Assembly: GCA_963402885.1 (NCBI GenBank)
Contig: OY727097.1
Location: 3,472,001 to 3,536,000, forward strand
Length of the DNA: 64,000 nt
Direction: 5' to 3'
Source: Antedon bifida
Taxonomy: Eukaryota > Echinodermata > Crinoidea > Comatulida > Antedonidae
Part shown: one piece after another, positions 23,509-64,000 of the stretch
How positions within the stretch are numbered: the first letter of the stretch is position 1
How the letters are laid out: each line of letters starts with the position of its first letter
The notes under the pieces: model-generated
The model's database searches: none
Seen by the model: the letters and a program-made list of their open reading frames with translations, nothing else
Told to the model about the DNA's origin: nothing
Translations under genes and position numbers: made by a program

Positions 23509-23665
23509 ATGATGATGATGATGTATGATTATAATGATGATGATTATGACGATGATGGTGATGATGATGATGATACTTATAGCGATGATAATATGACGAT
23601 GATACTCATAATAATGATGGTAATAATAATAATGATGGTAATAATAATAATGATGATACTCATGC
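23509..23665. repeat. GAT/AAT trinucleotide array
   Basis: Long imperfect (GATGAT)n changing to (AATAATGATGGT)n. It differs in length from the copy 2 counterpart at 63476-63640. Minus-strand reading frames rich in Ile and Ser across this array are repeat artefacts. Confidence 0.9.
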
Positions 23666-23883
23666 TATAATAATGAAGAATATATAATGAAGATAATAAG
23701 GATGGTAATGTATATGAATAGATATAGAAAAACAAATTATCATTAAAAAATATCGATGCTGTCCCTCTCGTAATCAACACAATTGTATATGGAAAGTAAT
23801 CGCTATATCGTTGTATTGGAATAATGGACGGCTTGTTAGTTAAATTTGACCAATCACCAGATGTTTGCATAGTCTCATTTGCA

Positions 23884-24002
23884 TATAAACCTGCATTATA
23901 AAGCGTTTTGTACATCGTTCAGATTTTTAGTTAAGATCTGGTGAGTGGATCGGCAGGACACCCCTTGTTGAACCGTTGTTAACGAACTACAAGAAGAAGC
24001 TG
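23884..24002 (+). promoter_or_regulatory. Putative TATA promoter and non-coding first exon of the secreted-protein gene
   Basis: Two TATAAA words lie at 23884-23889 and 23897-23902. A TCAGAT initiator-like sequence follows with A at 23921, about 24-37 bp downstream. The presumed exon runs to 24002 (AAGCTG, then the donor GTGAGT); another possible donor is at 23940. An acceptor at 24151-24152 (CTTTCAAG) opens the exon with the ATG at 24161. The start site is inferred, not shown. Confidence 0.55.
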
Positions 24003-24160
24003 GTGAGTTGCTATAGATATTTCAATTCAATCAATTTTAATCTAATGTTAGCAAGAGCTAGCCTAGTCACCTTATTGTTCTTGGTAGGAATACAGTAGTA
24101 TCCCAAACCATAAACCACGATAGCTCCAACATTTCTCTTGTTTTCTTTCAAGCCATAAAC

Positions 24161-34081: not shown

Positions 34082-34091
34082 TGCTTCCTCT
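34082..34091. repeat. Left target-site duplication of the giant transposon
   Basis: TGCTTCCTCT here is identical to 51718-51727 and directly abuts the left terminal repeat ATGTCTGTGAAG. Confidence 0.9.
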
Positions 34092-34249
34092 ATGTCTGTG
34101 AAGTTGGTTACTAGTTCCTAGTTCCTAGTTCCTTATTCAAATTCAATTAAAGGGACAGTCACAAATATTTAAAAAAAACAGATTTTAATACGTAATAACT
34201 GTCTAATTGAGTTGATATTGCACCAACATGTTAGCCTTGACCTCCTCTA

Positions 34250-36090
34250 CTTCTTCCGGTCAAAGTTTAATAACATTTTATGCATTTACGCCCTCTACGG
34301 CGAATAAGTAACTAGCTTTTACGAACGTTATAACACTTGACCTGCTTAATTTTTTCAAAATATTTTGGTATGAATCGATCACCCTTGACCTACTCTATCA
34401 TTTGCCTCCCCAGTTCCGCGAACTTTTTTGCATCTACGCCCTCTACGGCGAATAAGTAACTGGCTTTACGAACGTTATAACACTTGACCTGCTTAATTTT
34501 TTCAAAATGTTTTTGTATGGATCGATCAACCTTGACCTACTTTACCATTTGCCACCCCAGTTCCGCGAACTTTTTTGCATCTTCGCCCTCTACGACGAAT
34601 AAGTAACTGGCTTTACGAACGTTATAACACTTGACCTACTTAATTTTTTCAAAATATTTTGGTATAGATCGATCACCCTTGACCTTTTTTATCATTTTCC
34701 ACCCCAGTTCCGCGAACTTTTTTGCGTCTACGCCCTCAACGGCGAATAAGTAACTGGCTTTTACGAACGTTATAACACTTGACCTATATATTTTTTTCAA
34801 AATATTTTGGTATTAATCGATCACCCTTGACCTACTTTACCATTTGCCACCCCAGTTCCGCGAACTTTTTGGCATCTACGCCCTCTACGACGAATAAGTA
34901 ACTGGCTTTACGAACGTTATAACACTTGACCTACTTAATTTTTTCAAAATATTTTGGTATGAATCGATCACCCTTGACCAACTCTACCATTTGCCACTCC
35001 AGTTCCGCGAACTTTTTTGCGTCTACGCCCTCTACGGTGAATAAGTAACTGGCTTTACGAACGTTATAACACTTGACCTACTTAATTTTTTCAAAATATT
35101 TTGGTATGGATCGATCACCCTTGACCTACTTTACCATTTGCCACCCCAGTTCCGCGAACTTTTTTGCATCTTCGCCCTCTACGGCGAATAAGTAACTGGC
35201 TTTACGAACGTTATAACACTTGACCTGCTTAATTTTTTCAAAATGTTTTTGTATGGATCGATCAACCTTGACCTACTTTACCATTTGCCACCCCAGTTCC
35301 GCGAACTTTTTTGCATCTTCGCCCTCTACGACGAATAAGTAACTGGCTTTACGAACGTTATAACACTTGACCTACTTAATTTTTTCAAAATATTTTGGTA
35401 TAGATCGATCACCCTTGACCTTTTTTATCATTTTCCACCCCAGTTCCGCGAACTTTTTTGCGTCTACGCCCTCAACGGCGAATAAGTAACTGGCTTTTAC
35501 GAACGTTATAACACTTGACCTATATATTTTTTTCAAAATATTTTGGTATTAATCGATCACCCTTGACCTACTTTACCATTTGCCACCCCAGTTCCGCGAA
35601 CTTTTTGGCATCTACGCCCTCTACGACGAATAAGTAACTGGCTTTACGAACGTTATAACACTTGACCTACTTAATTTTTTCAAAATATTTTGGTATGAAT
35701 CGATCACCCTTGACCTACTCTACCATTTGCCACTCCAGTTCCGCGAACTTTTTTGCGTCTACGCCCTCTACGGTGAATAAGTAACTGGCTTTACGAACGT
35801 TATAACACTTGACCTACTTAATTTTTTCAAAATGTTTTGGTATGGATCGATCAACCTTGACCTACTTTACCATTTGCCACCCCAGTTCCGCGAACTTTTT
35901 TGCATCTTCGCCCTCTACGGCGAATAAGTAACTGGCTTTACGAACGTTATAACACTTGACTTACTGAATTTTTTCCAAATAGTTTTTGCATCGACGCCCT
36001 CTACGGCCAATAATTAATTTGTTATGGGTAGATGACCCTTGACTACTTTACCATTTGCCAAACTAGTTCCGCGAACTTTTACCTATGTCC
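34250..36090. repeat. Left satellite arm (about 12 units of ~146 bp)
   Basis: Each unit contains CGAACGTTATAACACTTGACC, a central ATCGATC (in GGTATGGATCGATCACCC) and AGTTCCGCGAACTTTTTTGC. Unit variants repeat in the same order: units starting near 34495, 34640, 34780, 34925 and 35075 recur near 35225, 35370, 35513, 35660 and 35810. This is a five-unit higher-order repeat of about 730 bp, duplicated in tandem. The last unit before 36090 is diverged. Confidence 0.93.
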
Positions 36091-36440
36091 TTTTACGGCG
36101 AATTCATTTTAGTTTTGTTTTGACTTGTTACGATTCTAGAAGATAATTTCTGAAGCAAACACAAATACAACAGTTTGTTTAAAAACGATAACCACAAGTT
36201 ATTTATTCCGTTTTATTCATTAACACTTTTCAACACAAGTAGAACATGACTACCTGAAATTAAAACAGCATTTAAAGTAGGCTCTATCGTAGTATATAAA
36301 CTAAGAACTGATAAATAACTTCTTACGTCAACATGTGACGACACACTGCATAGTCATTCAATACCACCCCACTTCAATAAATGTTATGCCGGGCTAATTT
36401 TTCTTGTTAATTGCAACAGTTGCAATCGATCCCAATGTAA
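36091..36440. other. Spacer between left arm and internal repeats
   Basis: AT-rich sequence inside the transposon with no recognised repeat, gene or regulatory motif. Confidence 0.5.
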
Positions 36441-38560
36441 TATCTTTTTAAACTTGCTTACAGTACCCATTCTATAAAAGCGCACAAACCAAATCTGAAC
36501 TGACGGTTTTGTTAAATGTCATTACAGCAACTGTTACTTAAAAACAGTTTACACTACCTTATAACAGCAAAATTAACATATTATTCATTAATACTGTTAC
36601 CGTTAATATTAAAAAGCGCACAATCTTCATTGAGTGATAATAGTCGTTTAAACACAATATACAGTAATATTTTTAAAACTATATTTGTAGTACCCGTCTA
36701 TACCTCACAAACTAAACAATTGGGTGAAATAGTGTTTGAAAAACGGTTTAGGCTTATAGACTTTATAACAACAAAATTAACATATTGTGAAATATGCCTT
36801 AACCTTTAATGTGAAACATATTCATTAATAATCCTTTATTAATTAACAATTAAAAAGCGCACATTCCCTGGGTGATGAAAGCTGTTTTAAAAACAATACA
36901 ATAATTGTAATGTAACGAATGTAATGTTGAACTGTAAGTAGCTGAAATAATTTTTTATTTAACAATTTAAATATGCCTATTACTACTCTTTCATAACTTA
37001 TATAACATTATACAATAATTTCTTTCAAAACTGTCAAAAGCAATTTTTTTTCCCATTGCATTTTGTTTCCTAGGTAATATGATGTAGGAAGATAATTGTA
37101 TCTAAATGTTAAGCATCACATTAAGTTGTTTAAATGGTGTTCTTACGCATATCGTTTATGGCATAAATGTCTTTTATTATAAAATCTATAAATTACTAAA
37201 TGTTTTACCACTGTAGACCTAGAATGTTTGAACAAATCTCTGAATTAAAAATCACCCACATAGGCCTACAATGACATCATCTTACAGTACCCATCTATAA
37301 GCGCACAAAAAAAACAAAGCTGAACTAATGTTTTTTTTTTCAAATGTCATTACAGCAACTGTTACTTAAAAACAGTTTACACTACCTTATAACAGCAAAA
37401 TTAACATATTCATTAATACTGTTACTGTTAATATTAAAAAGCGCACAATATTCATTGAGTGATAATAGTCGTTTAAACACAATATACAGTAATATTTTTA
37501 AAACTATATTTGTAGTACCCGTCTATATTTCACAAACTGAACAATTGGGTGAAATAGGCACTAATGTGGATTTTTTAAATTTCATGATATCAACTGTTAC
37601 CTGAAACATATTCATTAATAATCCTTTATTAATTAACAATTCAAGCGCACATTAGTCCTTGAGTGATAATAGTCGTTTTAAACACAATACAAACAATATT
37701 TTTTAAACTATATTTTCTACAGTACCCGTCTATATAAGCGCACAAAAATAAATGTTGAAATAATGTTTTTAAAAAATACCTGAAAACGGTTTAGGCTAAT
37801 AGACTTTATAATATCAAAATTAAGATATTCATTAATAATCCTTTAACCATTAATATTGCCAATTAAAAAGCACATATTCTTCCATGAGGTATAAAAGTTG
37901 TAAAGAGAATACAACAATTTTGATCGAAAGTAATTTTTTTAACTAAGTTGTTTTACCTAATACATTACCCATTATAGTGTACAAAGAAAACAATTATGTG
38001 AAATAATGTTATTTCTACAATGTCATTACAGCAACTGAAAATAGTTTATATACTTTATAATAGCAAAATTAACATATTCATGATTAATCCCATGGGCCTA
38101 TAAATTGTATAGGTACATGATAATCCTTTATCCGCTAATTAATTAAAAATCGCACATTCTTCCCTGGGTGATAAAAGTTGTTTTAAAAACAATACAATAA
38201 TTGTAATGTAACGAATGTAATTTTAAACTATAGGCCTAAGTAGCTGGAAATACAGTATTTGTTATTTACCAATTTAAATATTATTCTTTCATAACTTATA
38301 TAACATTAGGCTATACAATAATTTCTTTCAAAACTGTCAATTGCATTTGTTACCCAAGTTATGATGTAGGAAGATAATTGTATCTAAATGTTAAGCATCA
38401 CATTAAGTTGTTTAAATGGTGTTCTTACGCATATCGTTTACGGCATAAATATCTTTCATTATAAAATCTATAAATTACTAAATATTTTACCGCTGTAGAC
38501 CTACAATGTTTGTACAAATCTCTGAATTAAAATCACCCACATACAATGACATTGTTCATC
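36440..38560. repeat. Degenerate long direct repeats downstream of the transposase gene
   Basis: Two modules recur. Module A (about 36455-36830 and 37286-37640, with weaker copies near 37720 and 37960) contains GTCATTACAGCAACTGTTAC and AGCGCACA. Module B (about 36840-37260 and 38110-38545) contains GATGTAGGAAGATAATTGTA and GTTCTTACGCATATCGTTTA. Small plus-strand reading frames inside module A are duplicated with the module and have no coding features. Confidence 0.8.
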
Positions 38561-38704
38561 TCTCATATGTGATTCATATTTGTTAAAAAAATAACCTTGA
38601 TATTAAAAAATGAATATATGACTAAACTTTCGTATTGATACATCTAAATCAAGTTGAAGCACTAATCTATTGGCTACTGTATTGTCTGATCGTTATATTT
38701 GCTG

Positions 38705-41700
38705 TTAAACCTGAACTAGAATTAAATGTTCTGGAACACAATCCTTTACATATCTACCTTCATATTGTTTTAATTTGCCTTGAAGACCGTCATAGTATAA
38801 CCATCCATGTTCTTGAGATTGGATAACACTTACAAAATGTCCTGGTCTGTGCATAGTAACTCCAACAAGTCGGAATGTACATCCTCTGATAATCAATGTG
38901 TCGGCATAATCAAGTACATTATTCGACAGATACTCATTTGAAACGAGGTCACTAATCGGAATAACTATTATTACAGGAAGGGGACGAAAAATATGTCTGG
39001 AATACGTTCGCACACCAGCACAATAATATCCCATTCTGGAAAAACAGATGAATCAATATATATTTTTATAAATTACATTATTTATCAGTATCATGTTAAT
39101 TTATATAGTGAATATAATAAAGTAATTATACAAACACAAATTGCAATTATTACAGTAACATAAAAATTGTTTAAACTTACTCAGTTTTTCCAGTTTCCAA
39201 TATTGTTTTCTCTTCGGTAAAGAAGTTGGTTTCTGGTTGACTGTTGCCTTCGAATGAAGCACTGCATCGTGTTGGTTGGGGGTTTAGCCAGTCGGTTACC
39301 ATATGCTCAATGTCTGTTTCTTCTTCCTTGTCAGGTGTTTGAACTCTGCAAATTATTGTTTGATTATTTAAATAAATAAATAACAACTGTTATGAACAAT
39401 AATAAGCACGGTAAACCATTATTTCCACAACCTACACTTTATTTTAATTCATCTATAGTCATGTTTGTTGCAATCAGGGTGTTTCGCAATACAGTATGCA
39501 TTATATCATCAAAAATTATGATTATCATTTGAAAATTAAATCTAAATTTGATCAAAATTCATATTATTGCATTTATATTACATCATGCTCTACATACCCA
39601 ATAGCAATTCCTTTAGTATTCTTCTCTCTGTACGGATGCGGACACTGTTTGTTTGAGCACTTGCTCTTCACAGTTGTCTGCAACATGTTCGAAACATGTT
39701 TGGCGAAAATTTCGTATTCACTCCCATAGCAGTTTAGTCCTTTCTTTAGTTCACCTTCAGTAAATGATGTTAACCACGTGAATTTGGCCTCTGAGAAATG
39801 CTTCTCTGACATTAGAAGGCAGCAGGTAAGGATGTGTTGTACGACAGTTGTGTCTGATTGGCGTTCCAAGTGATTTTTAAATGCATCGTACTGGATGTAG
39901 GCCATGTATATGATTGTAAGGAAGTTGTCTACAGTGCATGTATTACTAAGTTGTACACCTTGTACTCTTCCACCCCATCGTGGTACTGCTGGTAGTCTGT
40001 CGTTGACTGTTTTTGTCGACTGCTTTGGGTGGAACACATTTGTTCGGCCCTTTCGTCTCTTTTTTTGCCAACCGTCTTCATCATTTCCCTTACTGGTTAT
40101 GTTGTCTTTTTTTCTCTTATACTGTCTCATTCCCGGATAACAATCTCCTTTTTCGGCTTCCGTATCTACGTTTCCCTTTTCATTCTTTTTGTCATCCATA
40201 CTATCCTCATCGTATTCATCATTTCTCTTACTGGTTATGTTGTCTTTTTTTCTCATATACTGTCTCATTCCCGGATAACAATATCCTTTTTCGGTTTCAG
40301 TACCTACGTTTCCTCTTTCTTTCTTTTTATCATCCATACTATCCTCATCGTCTTCATCATTTCTCTTACTGGTTATGTTGTCCTTTTTTCTCTTATACTG
40401 TCTCATTCCCGGATAACAATCTCCTTTTTCGGTTTCAGTATCTACGTTTCCTCTTTCTTTCTTTATATCATCCATACTATCCTCATCGTCTTCATCATTT
40501 CTCTTACTGGTTATGTTGTCCTCTTTTCTCATATACTGTCTCATTCCCGGATAACAATATCCTTTTTCAGTTTCAGTATCTAGGCTTCCTCTTTCTTTCT
40601 TTTTATCATCCATACTATCCTCATCGTCTTCATCATTTCTCTTACTGGTTATGTTGTCCTTTTTTCTCATATACTGTCTCATTCCCGGATAACAATATCC
40701 TTTTTCAGCTTCATTATCTAGCCTTCTTCTTTCTTTCTTTTTAACATCCATACTATCCTCATCGTCTTCATCATTTCTCTTACTGGTTATGTTGTCTTTT
40801 TCGTTGACTGTTTTTGTTGACTGCTTTGGGTGGAACACATTTGTCCGGCCCTTTCGTCTCTTTTTTTGCCAACCTTCTTTGCTTAGATTTATTGAAATGC
40901 TTTCTTGTGTCTTTTTCTTAACATTTCTTACATTAGGGAAATTTCCTTCACGGATCCTGCCCTTTATGGTACCCTTTAAGGTAGCAATGAACGAGCCGGG
41001 TCGCTTAAAGCATTGCTTTCGTAAGACGTCAACTTTTATAGATTTAAACCATCCCTCGACAGGTGCGTTTGTATCTCTAGTTGTGATACTGTTTGATTTC
41101 ACATTAATACTTAGAAGCAGTCCACTCCACAATGGGTATATTGGCATTATATCGTTTATTAAAATCCCAATAAATCCTGGACATTTCAGATCATTTGTCT
41201 TCTTTTCATTATGAAGCAGTGGGCATGATGTACTTTGCACGACATTGTCGTAAATTTCATCGAATACTACAGTAAATGGGGACACTTCGCGAATGGTTTT
41301 ATTGTCAAATCCAACGTTTTCTTCTTCCTTTAAGAGGTTTTGCAGGCCCTCTTGTTTGCAGCTACTCTCTTCTTCGTCTTCTATTATGTTTTTACCAAAC
41401 TGTTTTTCCAGCCTTCGATGTGCCTTCACGAACTGTGTACCTTTACTGCTTGAAAGAAAGACAATGCAAACATTGTGAAATATGTTTAATGCCTCGTCAG
41501 TTTGTGTAGAGTTTTGAAGAAGTGCGAAACATTGCAGTGCAAAGACCTTGATGGAAGATGATACCGGTATTAATTTAGACATTTTTCTCGAAATGGTCTT
41601 GATCATGTGTGCCGCACAGAGATGGACAGTTGTAAACGAGTCCACAAATATGTCTGTTTTACTTTTGGTGGAAATGTCGTATGCGGTCCTGAGATATGAC

Positions 41701-44700
41701 TTAATGTTCATAAGATTGAAGACAGAAAGTGCACTCTGAATTAGTGCAAAACTGTAATCCGTTTCAACTTTACGAACATGAATATGACGACCAGTAAGGG
41801 TTACAGCACGTTTGACGTGACCTAAGAAATGAGAGATATTTGGTATTGTGTGATCGGTTGTGAGCATGTCGGCAACAGAAACAGCTGGAACTTTATCTGC
41901 CTGTCTTATTACACATGAGTACAACAAAGGAATCTTTTGATGTGGGATTTTGCTTATAATCGATCCAGTTGCGTCTAAGTAGATATCTAGTTGGTGATTT
42001 GTAGATAATTTGCGTATTACATTTATTTGCTCATCACAATAGAGAAATACGGTAAATGGATCTGCAGCCACATATTGTATGTAATCACTATTATCTTTGG
42101 TGTATGCTTCTTTCAAAAGTAATATCTCTTGAATGTTATCACGGTGAAGTGTTTCCCGCTGAATTGATTCAGATAATATTTTTCTTAGTACTGGCAGGTT
42201 TTGACATTCAGTGAAATTCCCAGCCTTTAAAGCTTCTATAGGCATGTTCGACAAAGACGAATAATAATGATTAATTGTCCCATCCTTCAACAATCTATCG
42301 GCAAGCTCTTGTCGTCGTTTCCCTTTAACTTGGCGTTTATTGATGTCACTGCCACTGTGGGATATTTCTCCGTTTATTGTGCACTGCATGGTAATAGGTT
42401 CGTTGTCTTTGGGTTGTATTTCTATTTGAAAGAGAAATGTCCCACTGCATTGGTCTCCTTTGCACACCGCTTTTCCTGTAAAAAAATTGCATGACTGTTT
42501 TCTACTACGTACAGATTTTACACGGTTGTACTTGAACGCCAAAACACATTTTGGAAATGCAGAACTAACTTTTTCGTATAGGATATCAGTCCAAGGACCA
42601 ACGAGCTTTCTTTGACCTGAAGAATATTCACTTGGTTTTATTGAATTCCAATCCTCTCTGCTTATAGTTAGTATAATTTTATCAACAGCAGAAGCAATTT
42701 CATCATCATTTTCGTGTTCTTCATTGGTACTTGTCTGTAAATCATTATCCTCATCGTCTTCATCATTTCTCTTACTGGTTATGTTGTCCTTTTTTCTCAT
42801 ATACTGTCTCATTCTCGGATAACAATATCCTTTTTCAGCTTCATTATCTAGGCTTCCTATTTCTTTCTTTTTATCATCCATACTATCCTCATCGTCTTCA
42901 TCATTTCTTTTACTGGTTATGTTGTCCTTTTTTCTCATATACTGTCTCATTCCCGGATAACAATATCCTTTTTCAGCTTCAGTATCTAGGCTTCCTCTTT
43001 CTTTCTTTTTATCATCCATACTATCCTCATCGTCTTCATCATTTCTCGTACTGGTTATTTTGTCCTTTTTTCTTATATACTGTCTCATTCCCGGATAACA
43101 ATATCCTTTTTCGGCTTCATTATCTAGGCTTCCTCTTTCTTTCTTTTTATCATCCATACTATCCTCATCGTCTTCATCATTTCTCGTACTGGTTATTTTG
43201 TCCTTTTTTCTCATATACTGTCTCATTCCCGGATAACAATATCCTTTTTCGGCTTCATTATCTAGGCTTCCTCTTTCTTTCTTTTTATCATCCATACTAT
43301 CCTCATCGTCTTCATCATTTCTCTTACTGGTTATGTTGTCCTTTTTTCTCATATACTGTCTCATTCCCGGATAACAATCTCCTTTTTCAGCTTCATTATC
43401 TAGGCTTCTTCTTTCTTTCTTTTTATCATCCATACTTTCCTCATCGTCTTCATCATTTCTCTTACTGGTTATGTTGTCTTTTTTTCTCTTATACTGTATC
43501 ATTCCCGGATAACAATCTCCTTTTTCAGCTTCATTATATTGGCTTCTTCTTTCTTTCTTTTTATCATTCATACTATCCTCATCGTCTTCATCATTTCTCT
43601 TACTGGTTATGTTTTCCTTTTTTCTCTTATACTGTCTCATTCCCGGATAACAATCTCCTTTTTCAGCTTCAGTATCTAGGCTTCTTCTTTCTTTCTTTTT
43701 ATCATTCATACTATCCTCATCGTCTTCATCATTTCTCTTACTGGTTATGTTTTCCTTTTTTCTCTTATACTGTCTCATTCCCGGATAACAATATCCTTTT
43801 TCGGCTTCATTATCTAGGCTTCTTCTTTCTTTCTTTTTATCATCCATACTATCCTCATCGTCTTCATCATTTCTCTTACTGGTTATGTTGTCTTTTTTTC
43901 TCATATACTGTCTCATTCCCGGATAACAATCTCCTTTTTCGGTTTCAGTATCTACGTTTCCTCTTTCTTTCTTTTTATCATCCATACTATCCTCATCGTC
44001 TTTATCATTTTTCTTACTGGTTATGTTGTCCTTTTTTCTCTTATTCTGTCTCATTCCCGGATAACAATATCCTTTTCCAGCTTCATTATCTAGGCTTCTT
44101 CTTTCTTTCTTTTTATCATCCATACTTTCCTCATCGTCTTCATCATTTCTCTTACTGGTTATGTTGTCCTTTTTTCTCATATACTGTCTCATTCCCGGAT
44201 AACAATCTCCTTTTTCAGCTTCATTATATAGGCTTCTTCTTTCTTGCTTTTTATCATCCATACTATCCTCATCGTCTTCATCATTTCTCTTACTGGTTAT
44301 GTTGTCCTTTTTTCTCTTATTCTGTCTCTTTCCCGGATAACAATATCCTTTTTCAGCTTCATTATATAGGCTTCTTCTTTCTTGCTTTTTATCCTCCATA
44401 CTATCCTCATCGTCTTCATCATTTCTCTTACTGGTTATGTTGTCCTTTTTTCTCTTATTCTGTCTCTTTCCCGGATAACAATATCCTTTTTCAGCTTCAT
44501 TATATAGGCTTCTTCTTTCTTTCTTTTTATCATCCATACTATCCTCATCGTCTTCATCATTTCTCTTACTGGTTATGTTGTCTTTTTTTCTCTTATTCTG
44601 TCTCATTCCCGGATAACAATATCCTTTTTCGGCTTCATTATCTAGGCTTCTTCTTTCTTTCTTTTTATCATCCATACTTTCCTCATCGTCTTCATCATTT

Positions 44701-47700
44701 CTCTTACTGGTTATGTTATCTTTTTTTCTCATATACTGTCTCATTCCCGGATAACAATATCCTTTTTCGGCTTCCGTGTCTACGCTTCCCTTTTCGTTCT
44801 TTTTATCATCCATACTATCCTCATCGTCTTCATCATTTCTCGTACTGGTTATGGTGTCCTTTTTTCTCATATACTGTCTCATTCCCGGATAACAATATCC
44901 TTTTTCGGTTTCTGTATCTACGTTTCCTCTTTCTTTCTTTTTATCATCCATACTATCCTCATCGTCTTCATCATTTCTCCTATATTTTGTTTTCGCTGTA
45001 CAATCTTCATTAATTTCAATCTGGTGTACATCAACATCATCTTCATACGACCGCACCACGTCTTCTGTATTTAATACTAGAAATGTAATGTTTTTATATA
45101 ATATAATTTTAAAAGCGATTTCTATACAATGCCTATAAGTTTAAAAACATGAATTTCAGAGCCCAAAAGCATTAAAACACTGTGTATGCAATATCGAATT
45201 TAAAATTAAAGTTTAAAAACACAGCCCTTTAATTTACAATACGATAAAGTTCATAGTATACGGACCTGTACAAGTTATTATTAAGTCTTAGATTAACAAA
45301 TTATTAAAAAATAAAATTAGATGTATGATATACCATATTGCTTTATTTTTATGCAAAAGAATACGTGATAACATAGAGATATTACATTTCTTTGGTTATG
45401 GGTGAACCAGCACCACCGGTGAAGGCAGCAGGGCACGTGATGCACGAAAACAAAGCATCGCCATACCATTAAAAAAAATACATGACATCATTAATTAATT
45501 TTACCGTTTGAGACAGTGCGAGACAGGCAAGTAAAAACAAAATGTATGCATAACTTCGTATTTGTTTAATGTTTAAAAATTACTCACACTGTTTTAGTTT
45601 CGTACAAACGCGACTCTACAGCTCACTATGTCGGTCGGTTGGTCGGTCGGTAAACACTAACTCAAATTTGAGCACGCGACTGCAACCATGTATATGGCCT
45701 TATTTATCTTAATCATTTCCTTTAGTTTCTCTCACTTTAAAACTGTACACATAATAACAGGACTGTACACGCATTTAAATAGCTGTTCTGTTAAGACCTT
45801 GTTTGCCAAATTATTTTTCAGATTATTGCCTTTTCAGTAATTTTTGTCTCGTTCGCTCTTTCCGTAATTTTTATTTCTTACATTATTAAGTCCAGTTAAT
45901 ATAACGATCGACAGTTGATAAATAACAACAACATAAATCGAAAAGGTTTTCTTCCTCGAACTATTTATTTTTATTTATTTATTAAACATTTGGCAAATAC
46001 CCAAAGAGGAATCCAGTGCACCAACATATGATATTACCAATTATATCTTTAATGAAATTAATGTTTTCCAAGTCCAATCTGATGACGTCATAGCTAGTAA
46101 GAGCAAACATGATTATCGTGACGCGACAACGAATTTATTGTTCTTTCACAATCATTTGATTGGATTAATAAAGTTAAAGATTAATTCTAAAATATTATTT
46201 ATCAAAAACAGCATAAAATATAATGGAGAATGAAACTTTTATAATTTATATTGTTTTATGTAAGAACAATGTTTACCTATATCGTCGATCGTATCGTCCT
46301 AGTCGTAGTCTTAAAGTCATGATCAACAAGAACAATAAACTCGTTGTATCGTCACGATATTATTGCTCTTACCATGGAGAAAAACATTAAAAAAAGGAAT
46401 TTTCTCCATGCTCTTACTAATCATGACGTCATCTGATTGGACGTATTATATATGACAGACAGCATGAATGGTTATCCTATAGTTAGGTTAAAAACTTTTT
46501 CGATTTATTTTTTTTTCTGTATAATTTATTTGCTTACTTACTTATCGTCCCTAGTATGGCCCTTTAGTCAAGCATAACCAGTATGTGCGTCAATTTGCTC
46601 TTTAGTTCACTATGTCGGTCGGTTGGTCGGTCTGTCTGTCTGTCTGTCTGTCTGTCGGTCTGTCTGTCTGTCGGTCTGTCTGTCGGTCCGGTATCACTAT
46701 GCGTTTTATCGCTTTCTGACCTTATCTTGATATCAGTTTAATCTAGCTAAGTCAATTTTTCACAGAATATTCCTTATGGCCAGGAATCGATGTGGTTATG
46801 TTTTCACGGTGCGCAATAAAAGAATACGCGGTCTACGCACGATTTAACGAAATCACGTTTGTAATCATATCTTCACAACCATGAATCACAATTAAATAAA
46901 ATTTGGTACTCATAAATTTAAGGGCATAAATCATCATATGGCAATACAATTACGTGCGTAGCGCATGTAACGCATGCGTACGCGCGCTTAAAATTTTCAA
47001 AATTTATTTTCGATGAAATAAGAGTACGTTTCAGGCAATTTTAAGCGTTTACAAAATTGCCATGAGTGCGCAGATTTTTGCGCGCGCACTGCGCGTTAAA
47101 TGTTATTGCTCACTCTTTTTGCCCGATTTCTGTTTTGTTGACTTACATTTCAACTCGAAATTACGTTATACGAGCACGTCAAAAGTGACAGGCTACGCAC
47201 GTGTAAATTAAAAAAATATAAATGTTTTTAAACATTTCAACATTTTTAAACATGTTCAGTAATTTCGGTCAGTATAGTTCACTATGTCGGTCGGTCGGTC
47301 TGTCTGTCGGTCTGTCTGTCAGTCCGGTATCACTATGCATTGTAGCACGCGACTTAATGGCTGTTGGCCTTGTTTCTGTGCCATGTTCGTTGATGTCATA
47401 TCGGTTATACGTACTGTTTATGCCTAAAAGTTGACCGGGAACTGGGGTTCATAGTGTCAATTGGCCTTCTAAATGAGTTAAAGTTTTTTCTTTCCTTTTT
47501 CTTTTGAAACATTCTGTTATGCTATTTCTGCAAAACGTAGGCCAACAGGTTAATTATCGAATAATTTCGGACTTGGAACCACCGATACGCGGCGTGCCTC
47601 TTTAGGAAAATTATAGGACTAATATAACTCACTCAAAAATTCGTTAACTGACCCCGTTTAATTAAATTTATATTTTATGTCCTATCAAAACGAATTTTAT

Positions 47701-49272
47701 AACCCTATAATAGATTCTAATTATATGACAAATAGAGCATGCCAAGCGGTTATTTTTTTTATAAATTATTATGTGCGAATATTCCATCAAGTTGATTAAT
47801 ATTCCTAACAACTGTTTGTATCATTGTTGATTGGACAAATGTCTTTTTTGTTCTCTGCTGCTTCTCTATGGAATTCTCTCCCTCGACATATTACAAAATC
47901 ACCATCCATTGCTATTTTTAACATCTAATGCTAGCGCCTTTGATTTTTACTTCGGTTTAGTTGATACTGGCGCTATACAAATACCTACAATATTATTAAT
48001 AACTATAATAACTCAGGGTCAGGTGTATCAGAGGAATTATATTGAGCTAGACGCCTACAACTAACTTGACATACGTGACGTGTCACATGTTAGGGAGTCT
48101 AAACAATGGCTTTAGTCTTTAAACAGTATGTGTAGGCCTACTTAGAGATTCGCATTAAATAAATATGATCCTTTCATGGTTTAATAATAATAATTAATTA
48201 ATAATTAATAAATGTATACATACTCAACCATGGCAATAAAAAATAATTAATTACATATATTATGTTTGACCGTGTCATTGGTCACTTGCCATGTAGTAGT
48301 GACTATTTGCAAGATCAATCTTTAATTTATTTTATTTATACATTTAAGATTTCTATAATTTATATTGGAATTATCATTTGTTTTAAAATATGACAATTAA
48401 GGATGCTTTTAAGTTTACAAAACATTGAATTCCCATCGCATAGGACAGTACTTGCATTCGATAATGTAGTGTTTAAAGTTTAAGTACCTAAGTTGTAGTT
48501 GAGGGCGTCATCAAATTGTATGGAAGGCCACTGCAAACAAAATTTAAAAACCATTACTTTCTTGTTTAGTTTATTTTAGATTTTTTAATTATTCAAACCA
48601 ACTATTTATGGAATACATAACAATATATCATAATGTAGATACACATTAAGTTCATGTAATACATTGCTTTCTAATCCGAAAAGACCAACGGCGGCAGCAC
48701 CATATCATACATTTAGGCCTACTCAATGTAAACAAATTGACTTTTTCAGTTACTGTTATGGTATTTTACATTTGAATATCTAATATTTTATATTATAAAC
48801 TGTGCTTGGAATACATTTTGTGAATTACGAATGAAAAGGGTATTTCTTAAAAAATATTAGAGCTACTGTAGGCTACCCATGGTGTGTTTAAATCGCTCCT
48901 GACAACAACAAAAACTGCAGGATACATATTCCATTAAGAACTTAACATAACGGTTAAATTATCTTTGATTTCTTTCAGAAAGTAGTGCCCTTCGCATAAT
49001 AGTAGTATATATGTACATATTGTTATATTATCTTAAATCTTACTTCTTGTCCCTATGACTTTTTTCTCTTCTTCCTCTTTTGAACAAAGTGCATGCCGAC
49101 TATCAGCGTTTACTTCTTTAGCATCAAGAATTGATTGTATCCATCTCTTTTTATAATGAGGAGTTGCGGATTTCGTTGGTTTTCTTTGAAAACATTTAGG
49201 CAAATATACTTTAAATTCTTTCCGATTTATCCGTTTCGGAGTTTTACGTTTTCGTTTACCAACGCTTTTCAT
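38705..49272 (-). CDS. Transposase fused to a USP-like cysteine protease, with 46-residue repeats
   Basis: Exons in transcript order: 49272-49044, 45064-39598, 39345-39181, 39035-38705; GT-AG junctions in phase, 6,192 nt, 2,063 residues. Exon 1 is basic with a likely nuclear signal (KRKRKTPKR). Residues about 106-850 are sixteen copies of an acidic/basic 46-residue repeat. Residues about 850-1474 form the transposase-like core: a Cys pair (CKGDQC), then D1107 (IYLDATGS), D1179 (VETDYSFA), C1226-x2-H1229 (LCAAHM) and E1413 (APVEGWF), inferred as the DDE triad with the C2H motif of Mutator-type enzymes. Five more repeats follow (about 1498-1741). The C-terminus resembles peptidase family C19: Cys box LSNTCTVDNF (C1786), a possible zinc site (CSNKQC), His box MHRPGHFVSVI (H2020) and WLYYDGL (D2036). 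Roles would be DNA cleavage and joining, and ubiquitin or ubiquitin-like removal. The protease spans three exons and is intact. Exon 1 is the least certain part. Confidence 0.8.
40001..40874 (-). repeat. Repeat block 2 flanked by 73-bp direct repeats
   Basis: Five 138-bp units (46 residues each) at about 40074-40801 sit between direct repeats 40001-40073 and 40802-40874, which encode the same 24-residue segment (GWQKKRRKGRTNVFHPKQST and four more). The two flanks differ at only two or three bases. This looks like a block copied or expanded into the coding sequence between the transposase core and the protease domain without breaking the frame. Confidence 0.9.
42745..44978 (-). repeat. Repeat block 1: sixteen 138-bp coding units
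   Basis: Each unit encodes 46 residues: an acidic start (RNDEDDEDSMDD), a basic stretch (KKKERRSLDNEAEKG), then YCYPGMRQY and RKKDNITSK. Units differ by few substitutions and keep the frame, so the array evolves by unit exchange. The unit length of 138 bp is a multiple of three, and the complementary strand also lacks stops over most of the block. Probable structure is disordered or helical and highly charged; function is unknown. Confidence 0.95.
45616..47335. repeat. Three GTCG/GTCT microsatellite-bearing repeats
   Basis: CACTATGTCGGTCGGT followed by variable GTCT/GTCG runs occurs near 45625, 46607 and 47281. The second is longest (to 46690), and the second and third end in GTCCGGTATCACTATGC. 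The sequence next to the first (AACACTAACTCAAATTTGAG) also occurs inverted inside the MITE at 32272, so this is an interspersed repeat with a microsatellite core. Confidence 0.75.
46069..46443. mobile_element. Foldback element in the transposase intron
   Basis: The left side (TCCAATCTGATGACGTCAT then GTAAGAGCAAACATGA, 46072 onward) is mirrored by TGCTCTTACTAATCATGACG and TCATCTGATTGGA near 46408-46440. A second inner pair (GATTATCGTGACGCGACAACGA and TCGTTGTATCGTCACGATA) makes the whole 370 bp a nested palindrome. Non-coding. Confidence 0.75.
47845..48010 (+). mobile_element. LINE 3' remnant (CR1/L2-like)
   Basis: In one frame the sequence reads AASLWNSLPRHITKSPSIAI, the usual C-terminal signature of non-LTR retrotransposon ORF2 proteins. 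It is followed by a GGCGCTATACAAATACC tail ahead of AT-rich trinucleotide-like sequence, as at L2/CR1 3' ends. Heavily 5'-truncated. Confidence 0.7.
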
Positions 49273-50432
49273 TCTTCATTTTTAAAAACTTGCACAAATT
49301 AAGAATGTGACTGCACTCCTTAAAATAAAACATCCTACTAACTACCAAACAAATATACAGATGCCTAGATAATGTGCGTATCGTATAACATAACAATAGT
49401 TAGAAGTGTCCGACTAAGGCAACGAACTTAAGCTACCGTACCGGCGCGCGGCATTAATTAATAATAATGTAGAGATAGTGCTTGCTCCAAAAAGAGTTGT
49501 GGTTAGCATCTTCTGGTAGCCGACCACAAAAAAGTGTCATGTACACATGGTGGGTAGTTGCCGACCTGATTACGCGCAACCCTGGTTTGTCTTGTGTGTG
49601 AGTTGGATAAGAGTCTATTCATTCATTCATGTGAAGGAATTGATAATCAGTATTTAATAACAAAACAATTTTAAAATACCTTAGACTCAAGTTTCTTTAC
49701 TAAAAAATCTATTTCATTCCATATTAAAACCACTAACGATTACATTTATTGAATCAATTTTTGGAATTTTTATTGAGAATACAAAACATTAACAGTTTAG
49801 CATAACATATCAAATATAAACAATGATACATACATACAAGTAAATAAAAATGATCAAATATTGAGATATAGTTCGTTAATTGTAAACCTAAAATAAATGT
49901 TATTCATCTAAGTTACCGTGTCAAGACAGTTTCTTCAAGCTGTCAGCTAAACACGTATGTTAAATTAATACTGGTTTATAATTAATGAACCATATCTCAA
50001 TCTCAATCTAATCTAAACCAGAGGAAAATGTTTTTACTATTATCAAATATAATAATATGTATTCAAATACATTTCCAAATCCATCCATAATATTTCTAGG
50101 AATTTTTTTTCTGCAGATTCTCTACTTTCCCTCATTCCATTTATCCTTTTTTCGTTCTTTTTCTTGGACCTCTGTCTTCTTTATTCATCTCTAACGCCAG
50201 GCATCTTCAGTGTTTTGGGTTGCTTTGAAAAAAAAAACAGAATTGCACTGGAAAGTTTTAAACTATTCCAATCACCGGGAAGGTGAAGGGTTCGGAGAGG
50301 TAATGGAGTATCATAATAGCCACATTAGGAAACTAATGGCGTTTGGGAGCAATGAAATATCAACATTGTACTGCGAAGGTTTTAAAGTACATTTAAAATC
50401 CACCCTGGGGCGGGTATGATTTCTAGTATGTA
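49273..50432. other. Region upstream of the transposase gene, inside the element
   Basis: This should hold the transposase promoter. It is AT-rich with no clear TATA-initiator pair. A homopolymer-rich stretch (TTTTTTTTCTGC) lies near 50105. The plus-strand reading frame at 50210-50419 has no recognisable domain and is not called. Confidence 0.4.
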
Positions 50433-51560
50433 ATATATGATCGATCCATACAAAAACATTCGTAAAGCCAGTTACTTATTCGCCGTAGAGGAATGCTAAA
50501 AAAATCGCGGAACTGGTGCGGCAAATGGTAAAGTAGGTCAAGGGTGATCGATTCATACCAAATTAATTTGAAAAAATTAAGTAGGTCAAGTGTTATAACG
50601 TTCGTAAAAGCCAGTTACTTATTCGCCGTAGAAGGCGTAGACGCAAAAAAGTACGCGGAACTGGGGTGGCAAATGGTAGAGTAGGTAAAGGGTGATCGAT
50701 TCATACCAAAATATTTTGAAAAAATTAAGTAGGTCAAGTGTTATAACGTTCGTAAAGCCAGTTACTTATTCGCCGTAGAGGGCGTAGATGCAAAAAAGTT
50801 CGCGGAACTGGGGTGGCAAATGGTAAAGTAGGTCAAGGGTGATCGATTCATACCAAAATATTTTGAAAAAAATATATAGGTCAAGTGTTATAACGTTCGT
50901 AAAAGCCAGTTACTTATTCGCCGTTGAGGGCGTAGACGCAAAAAAGTTTGCGGAACTGGGGTGGAAAATGATAGAAAAGGTCAAGGGTGATCGATCTATA
51001 CCAAAATATTTTGAAAAAATTAAGTAGGTCAAGTGTTATAACGTTCGTAAAGCCAGTTACTTATTCGTCGTAGAGGGCGTAGATGCCAAAAAGTTCGCGG
51101 AACTGGGGTGGCAAATGGTAAAGTAGGTCAAGGGTGATCGATTCATACCAAAACATTTTGAAAAAATTAAGTAGGTCAGGTGTTATAACGTTTGTAAAGC
51201 CAGTTACTTATTCGCCGTAGAGGGCGTAGACGCAAAAAAGTTCGCGGAACTGGGGTAGCAAATGGTAGAGTAGGTAAAGGGTGATCGATCCATACCAAAA
51301 TATTTTGAAAAAATTAAGTAGGTCAAGTGTTATAACGTTCGTAAAGCCAGTTACTTATTCGCCGTAGAGGGCGTAGACGCAAAAAAGTTCGCGGAACTGG
51401 GGTGGCAAATGGTAGAGTAGGTCAAGGGTGATCGATCCATACCAAAATATTTTGAAAAAAGGAAGTAGGTCAAGTATTATAACGTTCGTAAAAGCTAGTT
51501 ACTTATTCGCCGTAGAGGGTGTAAATGCATAAAATGTTATTGAACTTTGACCGGAAGAAG
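50433..51560. repeat. Right satellite arm (about 7.5 units, inverted)
   Basis: Inverse complement of the left-arm satellite: CAAGTGTTATAACGTTCGTA recurs near 50590, 50739, 50885, 51033, 51180, 51325 and 51475, spacing about 147 bp. The outermost unit carries the same diverged form (GTGTAAATGCATAAAATGTT) as the outermost left unit, so both arms share outer ends but differ in unit number. Confidence 0.93.
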
Positions 51561-51717
51561 TAGAGGAGGTTAAGGCTAACATGTTGATGCAATAATAAAT
51601 CAATTAGACAGTTATTACGTATTAAAATCTGTTTTAAAAAATATTTGTGACTGTCCCTTTAATTGAATTTGAATAAGGAACTAGGAACTAGGAACTAGTA
51701 ACCAACTTCACAGACAT

Positions 51718-51727
51718 TGCTTCCTCT
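51718..51727. repeat. Right target-site duplication of the giant transposon
   Basis: TGCTTCCTCT directly follows the right terminal repeat (CTTCACAGACAT). Only 18 bp separates it from the start of duplicated segment copy 2. Confidence 0.9.
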
Positions 51728-52006: not shown

Positions 52007-53916
52007 GAATAGGGTTGGTGAAATTCAGTCCAAAATACGCAGAATTTTTTCCAAAATACGTCAAGTTGAGGGCGCTATACTAATCCAAAATACGCGAGTC
52101 TTTCCAAAATACGTCGACTTGAGGACGCTATTCATTTTCCAATATACGCGAATTGTCCAAAATACGTCAACTTGAGGGCGTTATTCATTTTCCAAAATAC
52201 GCGATTTGTCCAAAATACGTCAAATTTTGGAGCGTTAGTAATTTTCCAAAATACGTCAACTTGAGGCCACTATTAATTGGAAAATTATCCAACTATTATC
52301 CGCTATCAGTCCAAAATACACAGAATTTTTTCAAAATACGTCAACTTGAGGGCGCTATACTAAATACAAAATACGCGAGTCTTTCCAAAATACGTCAACT
52401 TGAGTTATCCAACTTAAAACAACTTTTGTAGCGCTTTTAATTTTCTACAATAAGAAAGTTATCCGACATATCCTCCAACTTGAAGGCACAGTTTTCTAAA
52501 ATACGCAAATTTTCCCAAAAAATATTCGAACCTTCAAAACTATAAAGGTCGATTGTATCTTCAACATTGAAAAGATGAACCATTTTGGTAAGTTTTAAGT
52601 TCAGTTTGTATCATATTAGATAATAGTTCTTGTAGTAGTCCATTGGCAATATATCAATATTTGTTGTATGTTAGGATCTTCTGCTTGATATGCAGATGTG
52701 CTAACCACTAGACCACTGGCGCTTTCATGGTATAGTTCAAACCCGATCTGATAGCGACTCTTTATATTCTCGGCGTGGTACGGCGGAAAAGCACTAGTCC
52801 CTTAATTGTATGCAAGCGAACCAGAGATCAAATTGATACGCCCCATCTTATATATATATATATATATATATTATTTATTGTGAAAAATTAAGGTGCAGTT
52901 GTCACTCTAAACTAGTCACCTCTTTTTTCCCTTCTCGTATTCATCATTTCATTTCAGGTATTTTTAAACAATAAAACACCCTAAAGTAAATGTAATCATA
53001 TGTATATAATATAATATAAAAACATTTTTATTTTGCCGTTTTCGCGTAAAAAACGATTACTTACTACTTATTATAACCAAATATTAATATTATTTTAAAC
53101 ATTTTAACACTAATAGTTTTTAATTATTATTACTTACTTTTCATCAAGATTGAAGATGATATTATAGTTCAGTTTGAGGATCATAAGGCCAAAAAAAAAA
53201 TGTGTATTGTGTTGGCCACGTTTTGGGTAAATCCCAAAAATGGGTAGGTCGGTAGGAAAAGTTTTTTTTTTTGTTTTTTTTCAGACCAAAAATGTGTTGC
53301 TGGCAAAATAATAAACAATTTATACAAATAATACAAAAAGACTTTTAAGCACTTTTCATAGTACCCTAGTTTATGCCTCATTTCTAGCTACGTCTGGCAA
53401 TTCAATCGTACATCGTTCACATTATTATATTATAGGCACTGTCTATTGACTGATGTTGGCACATATTTGTTTTTATTCAGTAATAAATGATTACATTGAA
53501 AAATAATAATTGGCTACTATAGGACATTTTATTTACAAAAAAATGTTGCCTTCCAATAATTTCATTTATAACTAAAATGTACTTGTTTGTTTTACTCTAA
53601 GAAACTTTTTTACATTAAATTGTAATTTTACCTTACACTCTTAATATGACACATTTGGAAAGGCTCTCGTATTTTGAAAAAAAGTTTGCCGCCCTCAAGT
53701 TGACGTATTTTGGACAAATCGCGTATTTTGGAAAATGAATAGCGCCCTCAAGTTAACGTATTTTGGACAATTCGCGTATTTTGGAAAATGAATAGCGCCC
53801 TCAAGTCGACGTATTTTGGAAAGACTCGCGTATTTTGGATTAGTATAGCGCCCTCAACTTGACGTATTTTGGAAAAAATTCTGCGTATTTTGGACTGATA
53901 TTCACCAACCCGACTC
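52007..53916. mobile_element. 1.9-kb non-autonomous DNA transposon with ~210-bp TIRs
   Basis: Flanked by the 8-bp direct repeat CCCCAGCA (51999-52006 and 53917-53924); copy 1 shows the unoccupied site near 14465. Ends GAATAGGGTTGGTGAA and its inverse TTCACCAACCCGACTC begin TIRs of about 210 bp. These are themselves built of repeated TCCAAAATACG and CTTGAGGGCGCTAT segments (unit about 57 bp), and extra units extend to about 52430 on the left. The middle holds a (TA)n run near 52849-52870 and no transposase. An 8-bp target duplication and a GGGTTGG terminus would suit a hAT-type element, but this is inference. Confidence 0.85.
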
Positions 53917-54375
53917 CCCCAGCAACAACTGCCTAGAGACGTAAAGCCGTTCTTATGACTACATTTACACCATGATTCAAGTATAGTACTTTACTATGAA
54001 GAGTACATCCATCTTATCATACAGTAACCCATTTGCCGACGGTCCGCTTGTCGTGTGAACTTATAGAGCATGTCAATTTACATTAATGAAGAATATAACA
54101 GTTATTATAATTATATTCAAGGAATTAATATATCACTTTCATTGCCGAACATAAATATATCACGTTTTTGACTTGTCAACCGTGTGGGCGACAGTTAATA
54201 CAGATAGTTACATAAAGATTAAGACAATTATATTACATATTGTCATGTATTGCGTATTTTTTGTTTTACATGTATATAAGCTGAGATTAACCTACATTTA
54301 TTTATTTATAGACGCTGAAAGATAACTTGTTTTTAATCTATAGATGAAATAAGTAACAATTTAGTATGTTTGCAG

Positions 54376-57300
54376 GTCATTAAATAATGAAATATCATTT
54401 GTGCATCCGTTGGCGTTAACATCTCTTGTGAAATTGTAAGTATATTATTATTACATCGATTGTCATTATGCATCGATTATCATTATGCATCAATTATCAT
54501 TATGCATCGATTATCATTATACATCGATTACCGATTATCATGCATCGATTATCACTATACATCGATTATCGAGTATCATTATACAGTACATCGATTATCA
54601 TTTTACATCGATTATCCATTATTATACATCGATTATTGATTAGCATTATGCATTGATTATCGATTATTATTATTTATCGATTATCATTATGCATCGATTA
54701 TTAGTATAAATCGATTATTGATTATTATTATTATGCATCGATTAATCATCTATCAATACATCAATGGGTTGTTTCGTTATGTAGCGTATTGAGATTCATA
54801 TAACATTAATAAAATAATAGCAATTCACACATATTTTTTGTTCTTATTTTCTATTTTTCATTGTATTTTCTATTTTTAATTGTATTGTGTCTAAGATGTT
54901 CAATAACTTACCGAAAAATTAACGTGTAACGTTATAATTCTAGAGACAATATCTATACGTTTCCTATAACCATGATGTAGGTGTAATCCATACACTAACG
55001 TTGTTATTTCTACACTAGGCTATCATTATCTAATTTCATTCGATTAAAAGTTCGATTTACATCGTATGTTTGTTTAAGTATGATTAATCACGTGCTTTCT
55101 TCTCTTAAGGGATTTATCCAAAAACAGAATAGACAGACTGTCATCAGTGCAGTTCAAGAACTTAACCAGTCATTTGTAAGTGAAAAACCACGCTCTGTTT
55201 GTTGCGTATACATTAACACATTAAAAATTGTTTTTTTTCGATCATGTTGAATTAATTGAGTTGATATGATGATCTATAAATAGATATATTAATAAAATGT
55301 CTTTGAATTTAATGAGGCTTTGCTATTATATGATACAAATGAAGTGCATAACATGTATTCATTTGGAAAAATTAATGTAGGATAATATAAATGCAATTTA
55401 ACACGAACATATCTAGTCATTTTTACACCGTGTTTCATAACTTATATTTTTTGTGCAATTATGTGTGTGTATATAATATATTATATTGTATATTTATTTA
55501 TTATTGTATTAATAATTGTCAATCTTTAAGAAGAATTTCTGTTGTTATTTTATGATGATGATGGACAAATAAAGCATTTCAGTATTCAGTAAAAAAAAAC
55601 AAAAAAAAACATGATACATTATATACATTTATAAACGATGAGTAAATAAATGTGAATTGAATTGAATTTGCAGGTTCTACATTTGCCATATTGATTACTA
55701 CATTATGACACACAGTATTTTAATCCTTGTCAACAAATTTTTTTTTTAATGTCATTAATATTTTAATTAATAAATACATTAACATTATTATTTATTAGTA
55801 AATAATGCATAGCAATACCATTTACCAGTACCATAATCTTTTTTCACTTAATGCGTTCCATACTTCGTATGTTTAAAAACAGCTAACAACAGCAAAACAA
55901 TTCGCTATATAAACATTGAAGGGTTAAAATATTCAATGAAATAAATGTCTGTTTTATTTTTGTTCACAGATCATTGGATTTCAATCTGTTTCGAACTCTT
56001 CCTGTTGATGTATTTCACGACTTAGTAGATCTTGAAATCTTGTAAGATACCCATAAACATGTATCATACTTCAACATTAAATTTTATGAAATGTTATTTT
56101 CTAAATGCTAATCGCCAATGGCCATGTTTAATGTGACAGCAATTTTTGCGATGCTATATCTCTCTTTTTCAACTGATAGAAATCATATCTTTAAAAATGT
56201 TTTATTAAATGTCTTTAACTATAATCGCCAATAGGCATGTAACGTTTCAGTGCAATGACAACTATACAATGAAAATAAATCGATTGTGAAATTTCTCCCT
56301 GCAGCTAACTGCATTGTGAGAATAGTACTTTTATAATAAGACGTTTGATTACACAATTAAACAAAACTGTAAGTTGAAGCTATGATTCTACACTGTCCCC
56401 CAGAATTGTAGAATGAATGGTTATCTGTGCAATGGTACAAATAATGTCATAAGGTGAAAATACATTTCATCTTTCTCCTAATGAAATTATTTGTTCCATT
56501 ACACGAATATAAAACATGTGTGTTAAATTTCTTATTTATTTTAGGAGACTTGAAGGTATTACAATTAATAATATCGAACCAGCGATGTTTGAAAACCTAG
56601 AGAAGCTTACTACGGTGTAGGTGATTGTTTTAACACGTATCACACATACATAAGATGCTATAATCTTATAGGTATTCAACTGTTAAAGCACAATAAGTGA
56701 ACATGTACACAATATTTTCCCTTATCATTCGCAAGCAAACGTCGTGAATTATTCATTAGATTAATTGTGCCATTAATTAGGACATAATATGAGCTCGAAA
56801 TAAATAATAGGCTTCAATTCATTTATCTACCTTAACTAGATAGGAAAAAATAAGTTTATTTTATGCCTAGCTTACATGGATAAACTGACAATAACCACTG
56901 CTCACCGCAGGGAGGGCTTTGAATATTCTTAAAGCACCCATATACCATATTAGTAACGCCATCTTGATCGCGTTGTATTGAAATGATTAAGTGAACCTTA
57001 GAAGTGCATTAAGTGAATACTGGGTTTGAATTGACAACGAAGCAGATAAAATGTTCAAATGTATGTGTCTCTTTAGATTTAAAAAGTAATATTTATCACC
57101 AGTAATTAGGATATATTCACTGTGATGATTGATTTAAGATTAATTAGTATTAGGCTGAGCATGAATGCATGTAGCCTGTGGATATACATTATAGTTAATT
57201 GAATATAAATCTTAAATCTTCTTAAAAACATGTTTCCAGTTACGTGCCATGAATGAGAAATGACTATGTAGCCTTGGAATATTCACTGTGTATATACACA

Positions 57301-60300: not shown

Positions 60301-60517
60301 TATTTCAGCAGATGAAGATGGCGCCGAACCACCACAAATACACCTTGATACTCGCTGTTATGTTGAACCACCAACATCAATAACAGCATCCCTACGTAAC
60401 ATGTGTTTAAAGGATTCCTTTCCATTCCAGTTATGTCTACCTTCTCATCTGCTATCTATTCAGGCTTTAGTTATTATTTACCCGCGTAAGTTCGTTTCAT
60501 GGTGGGTACAGTTATAG
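54376..60517 (+). CDS. 5'-truncated relaxin-receptor-like gene, copy 2
   Basis: Exons: 54376-54435, 55110-55175, 55970-56041, 56545-56616, 57552-57781, 58451-58903, 59469-59639, 59800-59976, 60192-60517. They correspond to LRR7-10, LRRCT, 7TM and tail of copy 1; signal peptide, LDLa, LRRNT and LRR1-6 are absent because the duplication starts inside the intron before LRR7. All splice sites are intact. LRR7 lacks four codons and LRR8 two, all in frame. Substitutions include Met for Arg at the start of TM2, His for Arg before the second part of TM2-3, and Lys for Glu in loop 2. A 1-bp difference near 60390 shifts the last frame, so the tail is 36 residues longer and ends WWVQL. It may be a pseudogene, may be used through splicing from upstream exons, or may be the other allele. 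Confidence 0.65.
54447..54745. repeat. ATCGATTATCATT minisatellite, copy 2
   Basis: Counterpart of 14997-15270, longer by about two units. The reading frame across it is a repeat artefact. Confidence 0.9.
55411..55610 (+). mobile_element. Retroelement insertion with poly-A tail, copy 2 only
   Basis: A 200-bp insertion relative to copy 1 (empty site near 15930), ending GACAAATAAAGCATTTCAG then A-rich sequence. Short ACAT repeats lie on both sides. The poly-A end and GACAAATAAAG signal fit a truncated LINE or a SINE tail. It lies in the intron after LRR exon 55110-55175. Confidence 0.8.
59127..59404 (+). mobile_element. 5'-truncated LINE insertion, copy 2 only
   Basis: A 278-bp insertion flanked by TACTCA, which occurs once at the empty site in copy 1 (near 19387). 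Its 5' end encodes the last residues of an ORF2 protein (FKRNIRKHLKEVMLERL then stop), followed by a 3' UTR with CACAATGGAAATAAG, an AATAAAG signal and a poly-A tail. This fits a CR1/Jockey-like LINE. It lies in a 7TM intron. Confidence 0.85.
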
Positions 60518-63967: not shown

Positions 63968-64000
63968 GTGAGTTGCTATAGATATTTCAATTCAATCAAT

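Follow-up and report, generated by a model that had tools for sequence, protein, structure and literature searches.

What kind of element occupies positions 34092-51717 of this stretch of Antedon bifida DNA, and could it move by itself? The window, by which we mean the whole 64,000-nucleotide stretch analysed (C10:3472001-3536000), belongs to a host assembly of 315.6 Mb in 27 contigs. We consider the 17,626-bp element within it probably the autonomous master copy of a foldback-type family of cut-and-paste DNA transposons, with a gene predicted to encode a DDE transposase joined to a USP-fold protease.

The element has perfect ends, and TGCTTCCTCT adjoins it exactly on both outer sides. The terminal sequence ATGTCTGTGAAG occurs once per strand in the window, at 34092-34103 (+) and 51706-51717 (-), and the window holds exactly two copies of TGCTTCCTCT, one at 34082-34091 and the other at 51718-51727 (both given on the plus strand). 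The left arm (34092-35986) begins with a tip of about 184 bp (34092-34275, +), a stretch free of satellite that ends the inverted repeat, and continues as a satellite array of 11.6 monomers of 147 bp (34276-35986, +). The right arm (50455-51717) consists of 7.4 monomers of 147 bp (50455-51534, -) and a tip (51535-51717, -). When aligned, the arms are inverted repeats of each other, with 92.6% identity over 1,270 bp. Monomers measure 147-148 bp in both arms, and among the 10 left and 6 right ones that were cut, similarity across the arms (mean 0.940) matches that inside each arm (0.936 and 0.941); left-arm monomers five apart are 99.2% alike, revealing a higher-order period of 5 monomers. Arms of this build, extended inverted repeats with tandem units inside, are a foldback trait. 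The left interior also contains a direct repeat of about 500 bp (36754-37262 and 38046-38543, 82% identical).

These ends recur throughout the genome. The 27-base end gave 141 genome matches at two or fewer mismatches and its reversed control none, showing that the window ends are not due to chance, and a 300-bp query from the left end matched the host genome at least 356 times, a minimum since scoring covered 40 of 219 candidates. When the first 100 of the 141 ends are considered, 74 form 37 convergent pairs spaced 1,191-17,673 bp apart, and 26 are unpaired. We took 20 stretches around ends for study, plus the remainder of one long copy. In the 21 elements bounded by two ends (window included), the target duplication is exact at 9 bp in 14 and at 10 bp in three; two others have a duplication with one mismatch and two have none. 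Since three exact 10-bp cases in 17 are about what chance extension of 9 bp would give, the true length is probably 9 bp, and in the left duplication of the window (34082-34091) one of the ten bases probably matches by chance. The outer flank is visible at 17 of 30 loci, the window among them, and all 17 begin at the same base; by eye, their flanks are unrelated and free of satellite. Copies that differ in length and share tips and target duplications are a further foldback trait. At one locus (L038, 4437-4457), two family elements lie only 21 bp apart.

The preliminary description of this locus, made from the window alone, had proposed a complete transposon with exact ends, and the other copies in the same genome bear this out: 16 of the 20 other bounded elements have their own exact 9-10-bp duplication, and none of the 17 visible junctions runs past the common end base. 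Its 10-bp duplication is present as an exact repeat, although the true length is probably one base shorter, and its satellite-built arms of about 2 kb and 1.3 kb were correct in kind and for the right arm, whereas the monomer is 147 bp rather than about 146 and the left arm measures 1.9 kb. Recent activity, also suggested there, is evident from the shorter copies. Four copies of 4,136 bp on C1, C7, C8 and C9 have different 9-10-bp duplications and differ from one another at 0-1 of 4,136 bases, from which it follows that movement has been very recent; three copies of 4,608 bp likewise differ at 0-1 bases per 4,608. Within the three groups compared, divergence in the remaining pairs reaches 1.4%.

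The four 4,136-bp copies are deletion derivatives. Of the 14 copies of 4.0-4.6 kb, 11 follow the interior of the element, with 98.2-99.4% identity, as far as about position 3922 and then pass into arm sequence, which supports an origin of the shorter copies by internal deletion of the full element; the other three (L034, L040 and L041) form a less similar subgroup (89-93%). Judged by their sequence, four further elements are classic foldbacks: L038b and L042 are arm-like along their whole length, and L035 and L047 are so at 93% and 97%.

Besides the window element, one other full-length copy was found, at C12:11699974-11717646 (L050/L051). The two differ by 21 substitutions in 17,362 aligned bases, and they differ in length by, among other things, one 138-bp coding unit and one 148-bp arm monomer, i.e., single units of each kind of array. 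A third copy, on C14, is decayed, with 51-92% protein identity when compared piece by piece. A distant relative on the minus strand of C12 (C12:12341300-12346600, L053/L054) is 30-36% identical and broken; its order appears similar, with acidic repeated modules (by eye), core and protease cysteine box.

The gene lies on the minus strand. Our model has four exons with GT/AG sites and matching phases, totalling 2,063 codons; splicing is predicted from the sequence, and exon 1 is the least certain part of the model. Exon 1 (49044-49272) would supply the ATG start and a basic N-terminus. Exon 2 (39598-45064) carries a repeat array, the transposase core, a second repeat array and the cysteine half of the protease. 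Exon 3 (39181-39345) is proposed from splice sites and phase; a similar stretch can be seen by eye in the distant relative, and the exon is mostly absent from the C14 copy, where 53 of 164 bp align. Exon 4 (38705-39035) would encode the His/Asp half of the USPL1/USP-like protease, with the motifs GHF and WLYYDG. Because this 2,063-codon model is intact, autonomy of the window copy is plausible.

The 624-aa core (40875-42746, -) is flanked by two arrays of 46-aa repeats. The first in-frame coding minisatellite (42746-44979, -) is made of 138-bp units; the second (40073-40801, -) is bordered by two copies of a 72-bp segment (40803-40874 and 40002-40073, both -) and is absent from the decayed C14 copy. 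Compared pairwise, 20 of the 22 repeat units give a ratio of nonsynonymous to synonymous differences (pN/pS) of 0.81, against 0.72-1.13 in five control frames; as the value is not below that of the control frames, the arrays behave as frame-keeping minisatellites. In C14, the first array is represented by only about 200 bp of repeat sequence, in which the program TRF reports no array, and the core adjoins the C-terminal domain directly, linked to it by just one copy of the segment that flanks the second array on both sides in the window. The arrays therefore appear either (i) to have grown in the full-length lineage or (ii) to have shrunk in C14. The second array, with its 72-bp duplication, may record the frame-preserving entry of an array into a gene.

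The C-terminal part of the predicted protein is probably a USP-fold protease. Against the PDB at E up to 10, exon 4 alone gave six matches, all to USPL1 (two, E 0.046 and 0.062) or USP15 (four, E 1.3-1.4). USPL1 (peptidase C98) was the only match both for the two open frames joined without splicing (E 0.027 and 0.04) and for the spliced three-exon domain (E 0.13 and 0.18). The domain has the order Cys...His...Asp, as NTCTVDNF ... GHF ... WLYYDG, the last of these fitting WLxxD, and its cysteine box has a counterpart, NTCTIDNL, in the distant relative. The ratio of nonsynonymous to synonymous substitution rates (dN/dS) of the cysteine half relative to the C14 copy is 0.35. An alternative, which we regard as doubtful but the strongest of those considered, is that the domain has another papain-like fold or is an inactive relic, and several results weigh on that side. 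The USPL1 E-values are marginal across queries (0.027-0.18), and the query that gave 0.027 still held a few intron-read residues. The cysteine half alone matched no USP in the PDB, and the spliced domain matched no Pfam family. Differences between exon 4 and its C14 counterpart number 5, 5 and 3 by codon position, with no third-position excess. The AlphaFold model of exon 4 is poor (mean predicted local distance difference test score, pLDDT, 46.9), so that the lack of a USP among the 50 matches listed in a fold search with it carries no weight. Matches of the cysteine half to cullin and COP9 chains (PDB, E 0.39-0.84) were taken as chance.

As to the substrate of the putative protease, the residue following the active-site histidine is phenylalanine in both the window and C14 copies, as in all USPL1 orthologs, whereas ubiquitin-directed USPs have tyrosine there (PMC8983731, accessible part). 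Specificity for SUMO is possible, and we would give it even chances. The start of the core resembles Pfam DUF4650 (E 0.0011 for the whole core and 0.00028 for its first 261 residues), the latter at 20.7 bits, below the curated cut-off of 27; the corresponding piece of the distant relative has no DUF4650 match. We take DUF4650 to be the other Pfam domain of USPL1. A search of the host genome for DUF4650 gave no match, and neither did 14 control genomes, which makes that result uninformative. It seems improbable that the transposase includes, as a functional component, a SUMO isopeptidase of the USPL1 type, and that the transposon shares both the protease and a DUF4650-like stretch with animal USPL1. 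Were it so, domains would have been transferred between a transposon lineage and the gene of an animal SUMO protease, and animal transposons would use deSUMOylation, a role already proposed for Ulp1 in elements of the Mutator group.

Preceding the protease, the core contains LDATGS (D1107), VETD (D1179), CAAH (C1226 and H1229) and TNAPVE (E1413), i.e., D, D, CxxH and E motifs that by eye resemble the Mutator-like element (MULE) pattern. In pairwise alignments with the relative that is 30-36% identical, the stretches LDATGS, VETDYSFALI, HLCAAHMI and TNAPVEGWF are matched, and dN/dS of the core relative to the decayed C14 copy is 0.46. These motifs, together with the 9-bp duplications, fit a Mutator-like DDE enzyme, and the exact 9-10-bp duplications of 17 of the 21 elements agree with the 9-11 bp characteristic of MULEs. 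The element would accordingly work like a Mutator-like transposon, its membership of the superfamily being unproven.

Much of what tells against this interpretation concerns the core. The DDE assignment depends on motifs recognised by eye. Neither Pfam MULE (PF10551) nor any other transposase profile matched the core in searches at E up to 1 and up to 10, whose HMMER filters discard most matches above E of about 0.1; a PDB search of the core, also at E up to 10, returned four matches, none to a transposase; and the AlphaFold model is poor (mean pLDDT 33.6). The protein-level constraint on the coding repeats that was looked for by pN/pS was not found. The full-length copy on C12 has two frameshifts in its large exon, which leaves the window copy as the only intact one found, although the frameshifts may be sequencing error. 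That copy has intact tips and, by eye, no target duplication in the printed flanks; candidate causes are recombination between copies, flank change and atypical insertion. An NCBIfam profile search gave no match, and scans of viral contigs gave no relative. A core match to centromere-binding protein 1 (PDB, E 0.08) and Pfam matches to Tox-HDC, LCD1, TOR1L1_C and HB_ELP1, all below cut-offs, were taken as chance.

A rival explanation is that the large element is itself a passenger, its tips and arms moved by the transposase of another Mutator-like family and its inner gene captured or decayed cargo. That only two full-length copies, one of them frameshifted, were found beside many shorter ones, and that the core matches no transposase profile, would suit this explanation. 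However, the D/D/CxxH/E motifs matched in a distant relative and the intact reading frame of the window copy count against this, and DNA transposon families commonly comprise one intact master and numerous deleted copies that depend on it. We therefore judge the passenger explanation unlikely, and prefer to regard the gene as the family's own transposase.

That the element belongs instead to the Zisupton/KDZ group, which the preliminary description had listed beside Mutator, is highly improbable: a large gene with a protease-like domain would suit that group, but the family's duplications are 9-10 bp, against the 7-8 bp given for KDZ (Zisupton/Dileera/Kyakuja) elements in the accessible part of PMC12730594. 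Of the candidates named there, the Mutator-like one is thus favoured, albeit without a profile match. Least probable of all is that faulty assembly produced the satellite arms or that they reflect insertion into an older satellite, since, difficult as tandem arrays are to assemble, the same tips and arm-like sequence are found in 20 other bounded elements, 16 of them within exact duplications, and the outer flanks are free of satellite by eye.

If the window element is indeed an autonomous master, its life cycle may be pictured as follows. The spliced gene would yield a DDE transposase that binds the common tips, and perhaps also sites within the satellite monomers; it would excise the element and reinsert it, staggering the target cut by 9 bp. 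Acting in trans, this protein would also mobilise the copies with internal deletions and the foldbacks that consist of arms alone. The arms would lengthen and shorten in steps of entire monomers, with unequal exchange as the probable mechanism. The C-terminal USP-fold protease, which most resembles the SUMO isopeptidase USPL1, would probably strip SUMO or ubiquitin off its targets, either the transposase itself or host factors present where the element inserts.

The surroundings of the element are themselves repetitive. It lies between the two copies of a segmental duplication (14458-24035 and 53919-64000; 94-97% identical in three blocks), each of which has one open reading frame (18701-19243 and 58432-58974) that presumably encodes a G-protein-coupled receptor. 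To the right of the element, two arrays of 53-bp units (52029-52255 and 53690-53894), 1.4 kb apart and reverse complements by eye, are possibly a second, unrelated foldback-like element. Other tandem arrays outside the element are located at 6682-7009 (3 x 111 bp, 98%) and 29229-29382 (5 x 31 bp, 99%).

The preliminary description considered a cut-and-paste element of this size with satellite-like arms to be unusual. This does not hold for the arms, as tandem-repeat-armed foldbacks (Tetris, Tm1, Galileo and FB) are known, but it does for an intact gene this large. Foldbacks with tandem-repeat arms and 8-10-bp duplications have mostly been assigned to Mutator (PMC4079207; PMC3169594); for these and the reports cited below, our comparisons are with the accessible portions of the text. 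The Tetris/foldback elements of Drosophila similarly combine a tip with a variable number of long tandem units (about 220 bp, against 147 bp here), and share 8-10-bp duplications, non-coding copies and gain of units between alleles; their authors report finding no coding copy, whereas here an intact large gene lies between the arms (PMC4079207). Tm1, a Mutator/Foldback element of root-knot nematodes, resembles our family in its composite inverted repeats, 9-bp duplications and coding copy with non-coding derivatives. Its 496-aa transposase differs in matching FLYWCH and MULE in Pfam, its units are of about 14 bp, and the portion accessible mentions no protease (PMC3169594). Rehavkus, which is Mutator-related, has 9-bp duplications and a minisatellite ahead of its 3' inverted repeat; it differs in having a PHD finger, for which our transposase gave no Pfam match, in its inverted repeats of 26-400 bp and in that no protease is mentioned for it in the accessible text (PMC6446971). 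Arthropod MULEs likewise have one transposase gene between inverted repeats, and are 1.4-10.0 kb long with inverted repeats of 13-1193 bp and transposases of 313-1136 aa (PMC13359780), compared with 17.6 kb, arms of 1.3 and 1.9 kb, and 2,063 aa (in our model) for the element here.

Transposases joined to cysteine proteases that remove SUMO or ubiquitin also have precedents, in Mutator-like elements with Ulp1 and in Ginger1 with Ulp1 or OTU, the nearest being a transposase_11 protein of T. vaginalis with a peptidase C19 domain; these carry Ulp1, OTU, or C19 on another type of transposase, whereas the best match here is USPL1 (PMC2836005). A pairing of USPL1 with a transposase or transposable element was not found in the open literature, subscription journals and Repbase being outside that scope. 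Foldbacks are often known from non-coding copies, Tetris being without a known transposase. In A. bifida, shorter copies of graded length occur in one genome together with an intact candidate master, its near-identical but frameshifted sister, an old copy that has decayed and a distant relative. This series makes it possible to test whether the satellite monomers offer the transposase additional sites, by what route the arms expand and whether a SUMO/ubiquitin protease aids transposition. Among foldbacks, an element of this size that combines an intact gene with a USP-type domain appears to be a new form.

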